DNA of 64,000 nucleotides, taken from the NCBI GenBank assembly GCA_009780855.1, contig WQZG01000004.1, forward strand, positions 20,689-84,688, written 5' to 3'. Of this stretch, positions 8,405 through 63,125 are shown in pieces. Below the pieces are notes generated by a model. It did no database searches and was not told the DNA's origin. It worked only from the letters and a program-made list of their open reading frames with translations. This DNA comes from Treponema sp. GTDB taxonomy: Bacteria; Spirochaetota; Spirochaetia; Treponematales; Breznakiellaceae. How positions within the stretch are numbered: the stretch's first letter is position 1; the number at the start of each line of letters is the position of its first letter. Both the position numbers and the translations under genes were made by a program.

Positions 8405-8487
<83 letters not shown>

Positions 8488-58772: not shown

Positions 58773-59489
58773 TTAAATTTCTTCATTTGGGTGGTTTCTA
58801 TATTCTTCATGAGTTTTATATTTAGAATTTTCTCTATTTAGAACTGTTGTTACTTCTAAAGGCCAACCCAAATCAAAATACTTAAAATTACCAATTCTTA
58901 AATATTCACCTTTACGGCCTGCCCAATTCTCCAATGTTCCTTTCCAAATTTCTACACTGCAATATTGACGCAACAATTCACAAAAGAAATCAAAAGATAT
59001 TATTGAATCGTTCCAATTATGCCGAACTACATATTGATGTGGCAATGTTGAATATTCTCCATCGGATTTTACAGTAATCCATTTTTGTATTTTAATTGAT
59101 TCTTCCAATATATTTTTTATCTTTTGAGGCATTTTTAATTCGTCTCTTAAATCTAAATTTTCATATCTTTCTTTTTTTAATTTATCATAATATATTTTGT
59201 TCATTTTATATAAATTCTCGCGATTTAAACTTACATATTTATCACTTTTTTTATTAGTTAACTTATAGCTTTCCTCTGCTTCTGAAAGTGACAAATCAAT
59301 CATTGCTGTATTTACTTCATTTTCTGGAATATCATATTTTTCTGCAAATTGTTTATAAATTTTTGCAGCTACATAGAATTTGTCCATCCCTGTATTTAGA
59401 AGTTCCAATGCCCTTGGAAAAACTTCGGGATAAATTGCTTCATATGCTAAACCCATATAATCTCCAATAATCCGAACCTCAATATTCAT
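58773..59489 (-). CDS. Hypothetical protein (integron-like cassette gene)
   Basis: 238-aa ORF in AT-rich DNA, 89 nt from the inner end of attC-like repeat A. Confidence 0.55.
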   Translation of the reverse strand: MNIEVRIIGDYMGLAYEAIYPEVFPRALELLNTGMDKFYVAAKIYKQFAEKYDIPENEVNTAMIDLSLSEAEESYKLTNKKSDKYVSLNRENLYKMNKIYYDKLKKERYENLDLRDELKMPQKIKNILEESIKIQKWITVKSDGEYSTLPHQYVVRHNWNDSIISFDFFCELLRQYCSVEIWKGTLENWAGRKGEYLRIGNFKYFDLGWPLEVTTVLNRENSKYKTHEEYRNHPNEEI

Positions 59490-59521
59490 TTTTAAACATT
59501 ACTTTTCACTTATATTATGGA

Positions 59522-59550
59522 ATTATACTTGTTATTCCATTATTTGTCTA
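59522..59550 (-). promoter_or_regulatory. Cassette promoter TAGACA-17-TATAAT
   Basis: Minus-strand -35 at 59550-59545 and -10 at 59527-59522 with a 17-bp spacer. Confidence 0.5.
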
Positions 59551-59577
59551 TATTTTCACTATTTTCAAAAAAATGGT

Positions 59578-59734
59578 ATATAACATTCAAGATTGATTAC
59601 TTTCCAGCCTGGATAAAAGCTTTAGAAGAAAGAACAAGACTGGTAAAATGTGATGAAATGCGACTTGGGAACTAAGTGACCTAGCTGAACGGAACCCGAG
59701 GGCGCGAACAGTGTCAGAGCATTAATCGTTTATT
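59578..59734 (-). repeat. attC-like repeat A
   Basis: Minus strand AATAAAC...GTTATAT ends; contains ACTGGTAAAATGTGATGAAA and GGAACCCGAGGGCGCGAACAG shared with repeats B and C. Confidence 0.65.
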
Positions 59735-59751
59735 ATACGACGATTTATTTT

Positions 59752-60339
59752 TTAAATATTCTTAATATCTTCAATATTTATATTGCTTAAATATTTTTTA
59801 TATTTTTTATCAGCATTTACTTGTAACCATTTATAAGTTTTTATTAACATTTCTTTTGTATTTACTTCATTGGTGTATAATTTTTTATACATTCGTAATA
59901 CTTCATTTGAACAATCATCACCTCGAATATAATGTTTAAAATTTGCGACAAAGACTTTAATAATATGTGTATATTTATTAATATTCATAAAATTTTCTTT
60001 TCGTAATGTCATCATATGTGGATTTGCTATACATTTTATATCTAATATTAAAAAAGGATTATCTTCAGAAATTGGCATTGATACAATATATTGCTCTGGC
60101 ATCAAACTGGGTGCATAATCATAAAATAATATTGGAAATTTATTATTTATAATTTCTGGAATCAATGTAATAAAAATACTGTTATCATTTCCAGAAACAT
60201 CTACTTCTAAATCGATATCAGAATATTTATTTGTTTTACCTTTAGTAATACTTCCGAAAATTCTACAAAATTTAACTTTATTAACTGTTTCTATATATTC
60301 TTTAATTTCTACTGTGATTGCTATTAAAGTTTTTTCCAT
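59752..60339 (-). CDS. Nucleotidyltransferase-domain protein (cassette gene)
   Basis: FCRIFGSITKGKTNKYSDIDLEVDV (GSx3Gx5SDIDLEV); ATG at 60339 chosen over the track start 60432, which lies inside repeat B. Confidence 0.75.
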   Translation of the reverse strand: MEKTLIAITVEIKEYIETVNKVKFCRIFGSITKGKTNKYSDIDLEVDVSGNDNSIFITLIPEIINNKFPILFYDYAPSLMPEQYIVSMPISEDNPFLILDIKCIANPHMMTLRKENFMNINKYTHIIKVFVANFKHYIRGDDCSNEVLRMYKKLYTNEVNTKEMLIKTYKWLQVNADKKYKKYLSNINIEDIKNI

Positions 60340-60423
60340 AAATCCTTCTAAATACTTGAAAATTAATATTATATAATAATAAAATTTAGTCAATATTTTA
60401 TTATTAACACTTAGCAAAATGAC

Positions 60424-60600
60424 ATATAACATTTAAGCTAAACGAAGGTTTGATAGTTCGAATACAAAAATGCGCTGCGTTTGCAGGGCTGGCAAACTTT
60501 GATGTAGTAAAATACCGTAGAGGGTATTCAAGCGCCAAACCCAAACCAGAACGGTGTTTTGTGGAACCCGAGGTTACCAACAGCACCCGAAGCGTTTATT
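60424..60600 (-). repeat. attC-like repeat B
   Basis: Minus strand AATAAAC...GTTATAT ends; contains GGCTGGCAAACTTTGATGTAGTAAAA and GGAACCCGAGG...CAACAGCACC. Confidence 0.65.
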
Positions 60601-60667
60601 GTGTGTTTTGTGCTTGTTTACATTTATATATTCTCTATAATTCATTTATGTTTTTTACACCTAATTC

Positions 60668-61726
60668 TTAATTCTTATTTTCTTCAATCCTATTCATCCA
60701 ATATGTTGATATAATTTCACTATATTTTTTTGACTTTTTATTTTCTCCAACATTCATATGTCCTCCTCCAATAACATAACAATCAGGCTTTTCAAGGATC
60801 ATATGTTTTGGAAAAATATAATGGTCCTCTGATGTTTTAAAGTTATCCATATACATCATTGCTAATTTAAACCATTCAGATTTTTGTGCGGTTTTAAAAT
60901 GTGATAAAATAAAACATAAAAATAGCAGTCCTCCCAAATCACTATTTTCAAAAGTTAATTGTTTAAAGTTTAAAAGATTTATTTTAAAAATGATTGCTTT
61001 AACATTATAAGAGCCACCTGGAACATAAAAATATCCATATCTACAATTAATTAAGTTCAAATATCTATCATCAAATATCCAATTTACAATTTTTTCTACT
61101 TTGCTTCTGCTTTTTTCGTCAAGTTTTTTATATATACCAGCAAAAAGAATAAAGTCATGTATTGTTGGAAGTGCGATGTTTCCATCAGAATATAGTTTTG
61201 GATCTATTATGTATTCCTGCCATTCCTTTTTTATACCTTTATACTCAGAAGCATTTACATAAATATTATACCTTTCTTGTTTAACAAAACTATACAATAT
61301 ATCTATTCTTTTATCTACAATATATCTGATGGACGCTTCATCGGCAAAGCCAAGCATAGGCAAAAAACAAGACAATACTGTTTCATAATCACGATATGAA
61401 TATATTTTCCCAAAGGATAAACTTTCTTCTTGTCGCTTTTTAATATGTTTATTTAAGAAATTAATTATGAATTTTATATACTCTGAAAACAATGGCATTT
61501 CTTTTGATAATCCTAAGATAGAGCATTTTCCCAATATATTTTCCATGCGGTAATCATGGCTGCCGTGTATATTTCCAATTTCATTATATTCCGATCTTTG
61601 TTTTATATTTGTAATCCAATACTGAACTTCATTATTTTCTAATAGATTTTCCCAATATTTTTTATCTTTTGTTAATATATATTTTATTGGAAAATCTGCA
61701 TTATCTAACAACCAATTTTTGTTCAT
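60668..61726 (-). CDS. Hypothetical protein, possibly alpha-helical repeat (cassette gene)
   Basis: 352-aa ORF between attC-like repeats B and C; no recognised motif. Confidence 0.55.
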   Translation of the reverse strand: MNKNWLLDNADFPIKYILTKDKKYWENLLENNEVQYWITNIKQRSEYNEIGNIHGSHDYRMENILGKCSILGLSKEMPLFSEYIKFIINFLNKHIKKRQEESLSFGKIYSYRDYETVLSCFLPMLGFADEASIRYIVDKRIDILYSFVKQERYNIYVNASEYKGIKKEWQEYIIDPKLYSDGNIALPTIHDFILFAGIYKKLDEKSRSKVEKIVNWIFDDRYLNLINCRYGYFYVPGGSYNVKAIIFKINLLNFKQLTFENSDLGGLLFLCFILSHFKTAQKSEWFKLAMMYMDNFKTSEDHYIFPKHMILEKPDCYVIGGGHMNVGENKKSKKYSEIISTYWMNRIEENKN

Positions 61727-61760
61727 TTATTATTCCCAATTATTACTAGCTTTAAAATAA

Positions 61761-61789
61761 ATTATACATAAATATTTTATATTTTTCAA
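61761..61789 (-). promoter_or_regulatory. Cassette promoter TTGAAA-17-TATAAT
   Basis: Minus-strand -35 at 61789-61784 and -10 at 61766-61761 with a 17-bp spacer. Confidence 0.55.
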
Positions 61790-61820
61790 TGGCTTTTCTA
61801 ACATTTTTGCCAAAACTTAC

Positions 61821-61990
61821 ACCTAACGACATTAAAGGTAAATGACGGTTTGACAGCCCGAATAAGCGCTTGCGCAGCAAGACCAGGGCTGGCAAAATGT
61901 GGTGGAGTAAAACCATGCAGAGGGTGTAGCCCGAACACGATTTTACGAAACCCGAGGGCGCGAATAGCACCTCAGCGCTATTCGTGTGGT
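61821..61990 (-). repeat. attC-like repeat C
   Basis: Minus strand ends in GTTAGGT, an exact GTTRRRY; contains GGCTGGCAAAATGTGGTGGAGTAAA and GAAACCCGAGGGCGCGAATAGCACC. Confidence 0.7.
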
Positions 61991-62874
61991 ATGGCGCTGG
62001 TTTGTCTCTCTTTTAATATTTTATAGAATATATTTTTACCTTCATTTTTTGCTATTCCTGACACTTGACCATCACCAAGTTCTATAATACTAAATTTTCC
62101 ATTAACATCTTTTGCAATATCCATTGTAAAAAAATTACTTTCTACTGTTTTTGCAATATTTTCAAAAAAGTTTATATTTGGTTTCATTTTATTATATTCC
62201 CCTTCTTCCCAATAATCAAAAATATTTAATAGTTTATTTTTGTAAAAAAAGAGTCTATATTCTTCAGATAATGGCATAGAACTTTTTGAATGCTTTATTA
62301 ATTTATTCAATTCAAGATATTCCCTTATTACGATACCTTCATTAAAACAATTATCCTTTAATTCTATTAGATTTTTTATTGTTTTATATAATTTATTTTT
62401 ATCATTAGAATTTGCTACAAAACAAGCAGTATCCCAATAATGTTTTTCAGATTTTACATAATCCTTTATAATTACTGCATTCCCATTGAATGTTTTAGCC
62501 ATATCAATTAATACATTTATATCATTTTCGTTATTAATTTTTTTATATATTGTCTTTGGTGTATAATTTTCGATATATTTTAAACTATCAGGTAAATAAT
62601 GGCAATTTTGATATTCTGTAGGATTATTTATTAATTTATAATTTTTTGAATATAATTCATTATACAATTCAATATATTCAAATGGATTTAACATCCACCC
62701 TCTATAAATTAATTCTTCAATTTCATTATTTTTATATTTTGTTTTTAAATTTTTATCATTGAAATCATATAATAAAACTTCAAAACCACTATCTTTTGCA
62801 ATATTATATTCATCTAAAAAAGCTTCATCCACAGTATTTGGTTTTAATAAATTTTCACAAAATAATAATTTCAT
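61978..62874 (-). CDS. ATP-grasp-like protein (cassette gene)
   Basis: GNAVIIKDYVKSEKHYWDTACFV, EGIVIREYLEL, EYRLFFYKNKLLNIFDYWEEGEY, FFTMDIAKDVNGKFSIIELGDGQVSGI. Confidence 0.65.
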   Translation of the reverse strand: MKLLFCENLLKPNTVDEAFLDEYNIAKDSGFEVLLYDFNDKNLKTKYKNNEIEELIYRGWMLNPFEYIELYNELYSKNYKLINNPTEYQNCHYLPDSLKYIENYTPKTIYKKINNENDINVLIDMAKTFNGNAVIIKDYVKSEKHYWDTACFVANSNDKNKLYKTIKNLIELKDNCFNEGIVIREYLELNKLIKHSKSSMPLSEEYRLFFYKNKLLNIFDYWEEGEYNKMKPNINFFENIAKTVESNFFTMDIAKDVNGKFSIIELGDGQVSGIAKNEGKNIFYKILKERQTSAIPHE

Positions 62875-62891
62875 TTATACACCCAATTTAA

Positions 62892-62920
62892 TTTATAAAA
62901 TATTCTCTTTATTCTGTCAA
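62892..62920 (-). promoter_or_regulatory. Promoter TTGACA-17-TATAAA for the ATP-grasp gene
   Basis: Minus-strand -35 at 62920-62915 and -10 at 62897-62892 with a 17-bp spacer. Confidence 0.6.
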
Positions 62921-63125
62921 CGTTGCTCAACTTCGGTAATAATTGATGATACAATATAATTGGTGAATTATTAATGGAGTAAGCAATGATATTATTACTT
63001 ATCAACGGCCCAAAAACAGCGGAAGTCAAATAGTATTATAATATTTTATGAAATGAACACCAATTATGGAGTAAAGAGTTATAAACTTTAAAAACGTTAA
63101 ACTTTATTCATCATAAAATATCCTG

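Follow-up and report, generated by a model that had tools for sequence, protein, structure and literature searches.

A short, probably decayed cassette array in a Treponema genome points to a spirochaete chromosomal integron family linked to a recombinase without the I2 domain

The 64,000-nucleotide stretch of Treponema sp. DNA analysed here (hereafter the window) carries what is best explained, with a probability that we put at roughly 0.7, as a short and decayed cassette array, whose repeats would be old attC sites of a lineage-specific chromosomal integron family that comes with a tyrosine recombinase lacking the I2 domain. In its present state, the array looks like a fossil, i.e., a CALIN-like remnant with degenerate attC copies. 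That the repeats belong to an attC-type cassette array, CALIN-like on its own contig, was the core of the original prediction, and this is borne out by their homology to sites of relatives that pass all the structural tests run.

The array has a GC content of 26.5%, versus 46.1% for the window, and the predicted arrangement of four co-oriented, AT-rich minus-strand ORFs separated by three repeats was recovered in place, together with the blocks that the repeats share. Read along the minus strand, on which all the features lie, the array opens with a gene for a 298-aa R2K-clade ATP-grasp protein (61978-62874; 21.7% GC; Pfam matches R2K_3, E = 1.3e-23, and R2K_2, E = 1.2e-19). The repeat that follows, site C (61821-61994, inner arm at 61849-61897), had been described as lying just past a stop codon and instead overlaps the 3' end of this ORF. 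Next come a gene for a 352-aa protein of no known family (60668-61726), site B (60424-60611), a gene for a small nucleotidyltransferase of 195 aa read from the ATG at 60339 (59752-60339), which has a Pol-beta/NTP_transf_2 fold and matches Lnu and MntA weakly, site A (59578-59743), and a fourth gene encoding 238 aa, again of no known family (58773-59489). The 352-aa protein has no homolog among 199 relatives, and none of the window cassette proteins has one in the relatives' loci collected. The fourth gene, the last of the array, is followed by no recognisable attC after its stop codon and could be a truncated cassette or the border of the array. The three degenerate sites span 2.4 kb, with about 2 kb of contig left beyond site C; the window contains no integrase, as had been noted from the start, and the sole match of an Rfam scan over it is a tRNA gene at 8405-8487.

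The R' ends of the three sites were correctly called as GTTATAT in A (59578-59584) and B (60424-60430) and GTTAGGT in C (61821-61827), and so were the nearly constant distances from these ends to the next start codon (89, 85, and 95 nt, respectively). The other end had been misread: alignment with intact relatives puts AATAAAC, proposed as the R'' of A and B, in or beside the L'' arm, and gives as outer R'' candidates GTATAAT for A (59732-59738), ACAAAAC for B (60605-60611), and CCATACC for C (61988-61994). GTT is thereby present in the R' of all three copies and AAC in the R'' of B only, site C being among those that have lost it. Each of the three leaders contains a sigma70-like promoter, namely TTGAAA-17-TATAAT ahead of the 352-aa gene (61761-61789, score 11/12), a weaker one ahead of the nucleotidyltransferase gene (60368-60393, 9/12), and TAGACA-17-TATAAT ahead of the fourth gene (59522-59550, 11/12).

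Sequence homology places the same attC family in 169 of 200 Breznakiellaceae (termite-gut treponeme) genomes, often as several copies per contig at gene-sized spacing, and a pattern from the conserved arm matches mainly records of termite-gut treponeme MAGs and other spirochaete genomes, Breznakiella homolactica included. The sites measure about 150-230 bp (148-228 nt, median 179, for 251 distinct full-length sites). In aligned copies, R'' GCATAAC is followed by AGG, a single variable base, and L'' CTGTTTACG, then by a variable middle and, on the far side, by L' CGTAAACAG, CCGGAAC, and R' GTTATGC, an order of elements that, as judged from the alignment, is that of attC. AAC and GTT are both present in 238 of the 251 sites; the R box pairs in the fold of 209 of these 238, and exactly one base is left unpaired on the L'' side of the bottom strand in 185 of the 209. 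Compared with shuffles, the bottom strands of 25 relatives' sites have a mean z of -5.4; the lack of a bottom-strand hairpin, named in advance as a refuting outcome, does not apply to the family.

The units between the sites also behave as cassettes. Among the 231 cassettes with an ORF of 60 aa or more, the longest ORF is co-oriented with the attC in 222, and the median leader of these 222 is 89 nt long. A promoter score of at least 10 is reached by 50% of leaders versus 4% of control stretches (p = 3e-31); family cassettes, those of the window and of relatives alike, bring a sigma70-like promoter of their own, located between R' and the gene. One cassette, 92% identical, is common to two single-cell genomes (PG1894_85 and MS502-68) and another is duplicated in Treponema primitia; in such shared or duplicated cassettes, identity stops at the attC sites or shortly beyond them. 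Family sites are additionally found on termite-gut bins labelled Bacteroidales, Prevotellaceae, Dysgonamonadaceae, Synergistaceae, Helicobacteraceae, and Clostridiales (contigs L110, L117, L126, L132, L154, L167, L178, L179, L180, L202, L205, L208, L209, L211, L212, L213, and L215), either because spirochaete contigs were misbinned or because cassettes have moved between phyla.

A long array was found in the genome that we take to be that of B. homolactica RmG30 (G033, NZ_CP067089.2), where 42 co-oriented attC sites at a median spacing of 917 bp occupy positions 3,521,951-3,560,487, beginning 1.9 kb past a recombinase gene (3,518,834-3,520,063) that has an attI-like site near 3,520,224; their mean identity is 0.77 within the array versus 0.60 to the sites of T. 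primitia. Two further genomes, presumably those of T. primitia ZAS-2 (G061) and Treponema azotonutricium ZAS-9 (G029), hold at least 10 attC sites and a broken recombinase near two attC, respectively. Two attC-like sites of T. azotonutricium (L061:9808-9972 and L062:7786-7951) have different interiors and near-identical flanks on both sides. None of the B. homolactica, T. primitia (both complete), and T. azotonutricium genomes encodes an IntI above cut-off. Conversely, three Breznakiellaceae with a canonical IntI, G022, G158, and G028, the last of which we take to be T. caldarium, have neither the attC family nor the I2-less enzyme. At the genome level, co-occurrence of attC and recombinase is not informative in the 200-genome family set, given the fragmented assemblies and the near-universal presence of attC in the family.

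The enzyme linked to these arrays is a tyrosine recombinase of about 400 aa that has a short N-terminal extension and lacks the additional (I2) domain of IntI. In an alignment, the additional-domain stretch ALxxKYPxAxxxWxWQ is missing from 20 of 20 linked recombinases and present in 32 of 32 canonical IntI, among them the f3 (Treponemataceae-type) group, while the catalytic residues of tyrosine recombinases are conserved. Around 56 such recombinase genes, 56 attC were counted, 44 of them downstream and co-oriented with the gene, 6 downstream in the opposite orientation, and 6 upstream, even though the upstream sequence scanned amounted to 2.2 times the downstream; a profile-free finder gave 31, 0, and 1, respectively. 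An attI-like core, [AC]GTTA(T/A/G)RYG, that resembles the R' end of attC follows the gene on its 3' side in 17 of 25 loci (consensus in intact systems, [AC]GTTATGCGMMATT). Contigs often stop soon after the recombinase gene, as would be expected if repeat arrays break assemblies. Two loci, L356 and L365, have the classical divergent layout of recombinase and array; at these, several GTTAGAC/GTTAAGC cores lie between the two, like a multi-core attI (L356:1000-2145 and L365:7209-8300).

In a phylogenetic tree, the I2-less linked set and the canonical IntI each form a supported clade (98/93 and 97/99), and when other I2-less recombinases of Spirochaetia are included, the attC-linked enzymes group with those and not with IntI. 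Both trees have long branches, and the I2-less clade may either have lost I2 or never have had it; row L389 of the second tree is misframed and is to be disregarded. The best PDB sequence match of the linked recombinase is VchIntIA (2a3v, E = 2e-55), and a fold search with an AlphaFold model built from 4 sequences, of low confidence (mean pLDDT 69, pTM 0.46), matched XerA and IntI about equally.

Similar layouts recur in other spirochaete families. In G056 (L391), an I2-less recombinase gene has four attC-like sites, oriented as it is, and an attI-like partial repeat after it, and downstream sites of the same orientation number three in G308 (L395), two in G328 (L392), and one in G385 (L390); all these attC-like sequences are unrelated to the Breznakiellaceae family. 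Those of L391 (7111-12530) are about 165 nt long and sit inside a repeat of about 300 bp that also contains terminator-like hairpins to either side. No attC lies near many further I2-less recombinases of Spirochaetia, most of them shorter proteins.

The window's own genome encodes no integron integrase above the TIGR02249 cut-off. Its best match to this profile is an intact 435-aa tyrosine recombinase ORF on contig C51, which retains the R, K, HxxR, H, and Y motifs, shares the conserved catalytic residues of the alignment above, and is nearest to the branch of L356 and L365. A canonical IntI was ruled out for this ORF, the additional domain being absent. Downstream of it lies argG and not attC, and the sequence upstream of it runs out after 378 bp, which leaves its link to the window array putative; contigs C4, C51, and C100 share no usable overlap through which common end sequence would join them.

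How the window copies relate to the family follows from searches built on other genomes only. A profile of their copies finds A, B, and C with E = 2e-10, 4e-7, and 9e-22, and a covariance model recovers all three in the own genome (4.8e-4, 8.7e-9, and 2e-14). Over that whole genome the model reports 4 copies, the fourth at C100:204-293; this copy, at the start of contig C100 (L028:1-350), has its 5' half in common with site C and ends in GTTATGC. In structure, the window copies differ from the intact sites. The bottom-strand hairpins anticipated for them did not materialise, since they fold no better than shuffles on either strand (z of 0.35 and 0.06 for A, -0.6 and 0.38 for B, and -0.9 to -1.6 for C; bottom strand, 0.06, 0.38, and -0.90), and their R boxes pair at 5, 5, and 4 of 7 positions. 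A profile-free, ab initio attC finder (R box at least 6/8, L box 8/8, attC polarity) detects intact sites in relatives and returned 0 matches in the 64-kb window. The missing fold, the loss of AAC from two of three R'', and the empty ab initio search make the array look fossil, and the term "mobile" that had been applied to it is not supported; the copies are probably dead, i.e., no longer recombination substrates.

Two other accounts of the window sites have to be set against this one. They could be a derived, AT-rich attC subtype that is not decayed and is still used by the C51 recombinase, as the GTT kept in every R', the retained leader promoters and leaders of about 89 nt, and the intact C51 ORF with all its motifs would suggest; AAC is however lost from two of the three R'', R-box pairing is incomplete, and no fold rises above shuffles, which leaves this subtype an unlikely explanation. 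It is far less probable still that the repeats are a dispersed hairpin element, REP or MITE-like, that came to lie between genes by chance and has nothing to do with attC. Unfolded window copies and the presence of related sites at many places in relatives are what such an element would give, but a dispersed family is not what was found: the own genome has 4 copies, 3 of them in the window array, and in relatives the sites are spaced cassette by cassette, alternate with single co-oriented ORFs, and possess R and L boxes and an extrahelical base, with identity between shared units stopping at the sites.

Another possibility concerns the enzyme and not the sites. The array could be an ordinary CALIN, served by a canonical IntI in trans or by one since lost, in which case the I2-less enzyme would be a Xer- or phage-type bystander. 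Canonical IntI do exist elsewhere in the family and order, and the I2-less enzymes also score near XerA/XerC/XerD (204-215 bits for NF040815, with a cut-off of 220). This scenario, which we regard as improbable although less so than the AT-rich subtype, nevertheless has to accommodate a linkage at over 20 loci in which order and orientation are constant, attI-like cores directly 3' of the I2-less gene, complete B. homolactica and T. primitia genomes without IntI above cut-off, genomes with a canonical IntI and without the family attC, and a similar layout, with attC of unrelated sequence, in further families of spirochaetes.

The preferred reading, a decayed array of an integron family with its own I2-less recombinase, can be put as a mechanism. 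In intact systems, the I2-less tyrosine recombinase gene stands beside an attI-like core, and the enzyme would most likely recombine the folded bottom strand of an attC with attI or with another attC, the folded substrate being made up of an R box, an unpaired spacer, an L box, one extrahelical base, and a three-armed terminal structure. A cassette unit would consist of a leader promoter, one gene, and an attC, and such units would be inserted, excised, and exchanged. In the window's own genome, the enzyme may survive as the C51 ORF, the three window sites having presumably drifted until they could no longer fold. From linkage, layout, and site structure, we infer that the I2-less recombinase catalyses cassette recombination at the family attC, and it would do so on single strands.

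Beyond the window, it is probable that Spirochaetia hold a second integron lineage, in which folded attC with extrahelical bases are recombined by an enzyme that never had or has lost I2. With similar confidence, we expect this lineage to extend outside the Breznakiellaceae, with unrelated attC sequences, and its arrays to be called CALINs by integrase searches that rely on I2, which suggests that some CALINs may have an overlooked integrase. The additional domain is used to define IntI (PMC2426708, PMC9668308, PMC9229058) and, according to PMC7790495, is necessary and absent from other proteins, its necessity for activity being credited there to Messier and Roy (2001); since it is reported as necessary, an I2-less enzyme acting on attC contradicts current knowledge. 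The I2 helix is moreover the presumed innovation that enabled single-stranded cassette capture, and a lack of intermediates has been noted (PMC7790495). Natural attC arrays with an I2-less neighbour make the claim of necessity directly testable. No paper mentioning both integron and Breznakiella was found in the open-licence literature, an absence of report that is no proof.

Among known systems, the parallel first drawn was with the sedentary chromosomal integron of Treponema denticola, which was reported together with those of T. succinifaciens and T. brennaborense and has attC of 63-132 bp (Wu et al., 2013, PMC3607928). The two have in common chromosomal cassette arrays in a spirochaete, the attC architecture, and, at most loci here, an integrase that points toward the array and shares the orientation of the cassettes, a layout called atypical in that study. 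The parallel fails in detail, the T. denticola IntI having the additional domain, whereas the linked recombinase here is without it and the attC are about 150-230 bp long. For T. azotonutricium and T. primitia, both from termites, the same study reported not a trace of an integron; arrays or remnants are seen here in both, and that statement is to be revised, attC arrays being common in the lineage. Compared with IntI at large (TIGR02249; VchIntIA, PDB 2a3v), the linked recombinase has the same SAM-like core-binding domain and R-K-HxxR-H-Y residues and matches TIGR02249 partially, but it lacks I2, forms a separate clade, and scores 186-210 against a cut-off of 265 bits. XerA-like recombinases (NF040815, PDB 5hxy/4a8e) are the nearest named family besides IntI and have no I2 either; the linked enzyme falls below their cut-off, has an extra N-terminal part, and adjoins attC arrays instead of being solitary. 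As for CALINs, the window array resembles one as seen on its own contig and differs in having degenerate sites, a contig end about 2 kb away, and a genome that includes a candidate recombinase.
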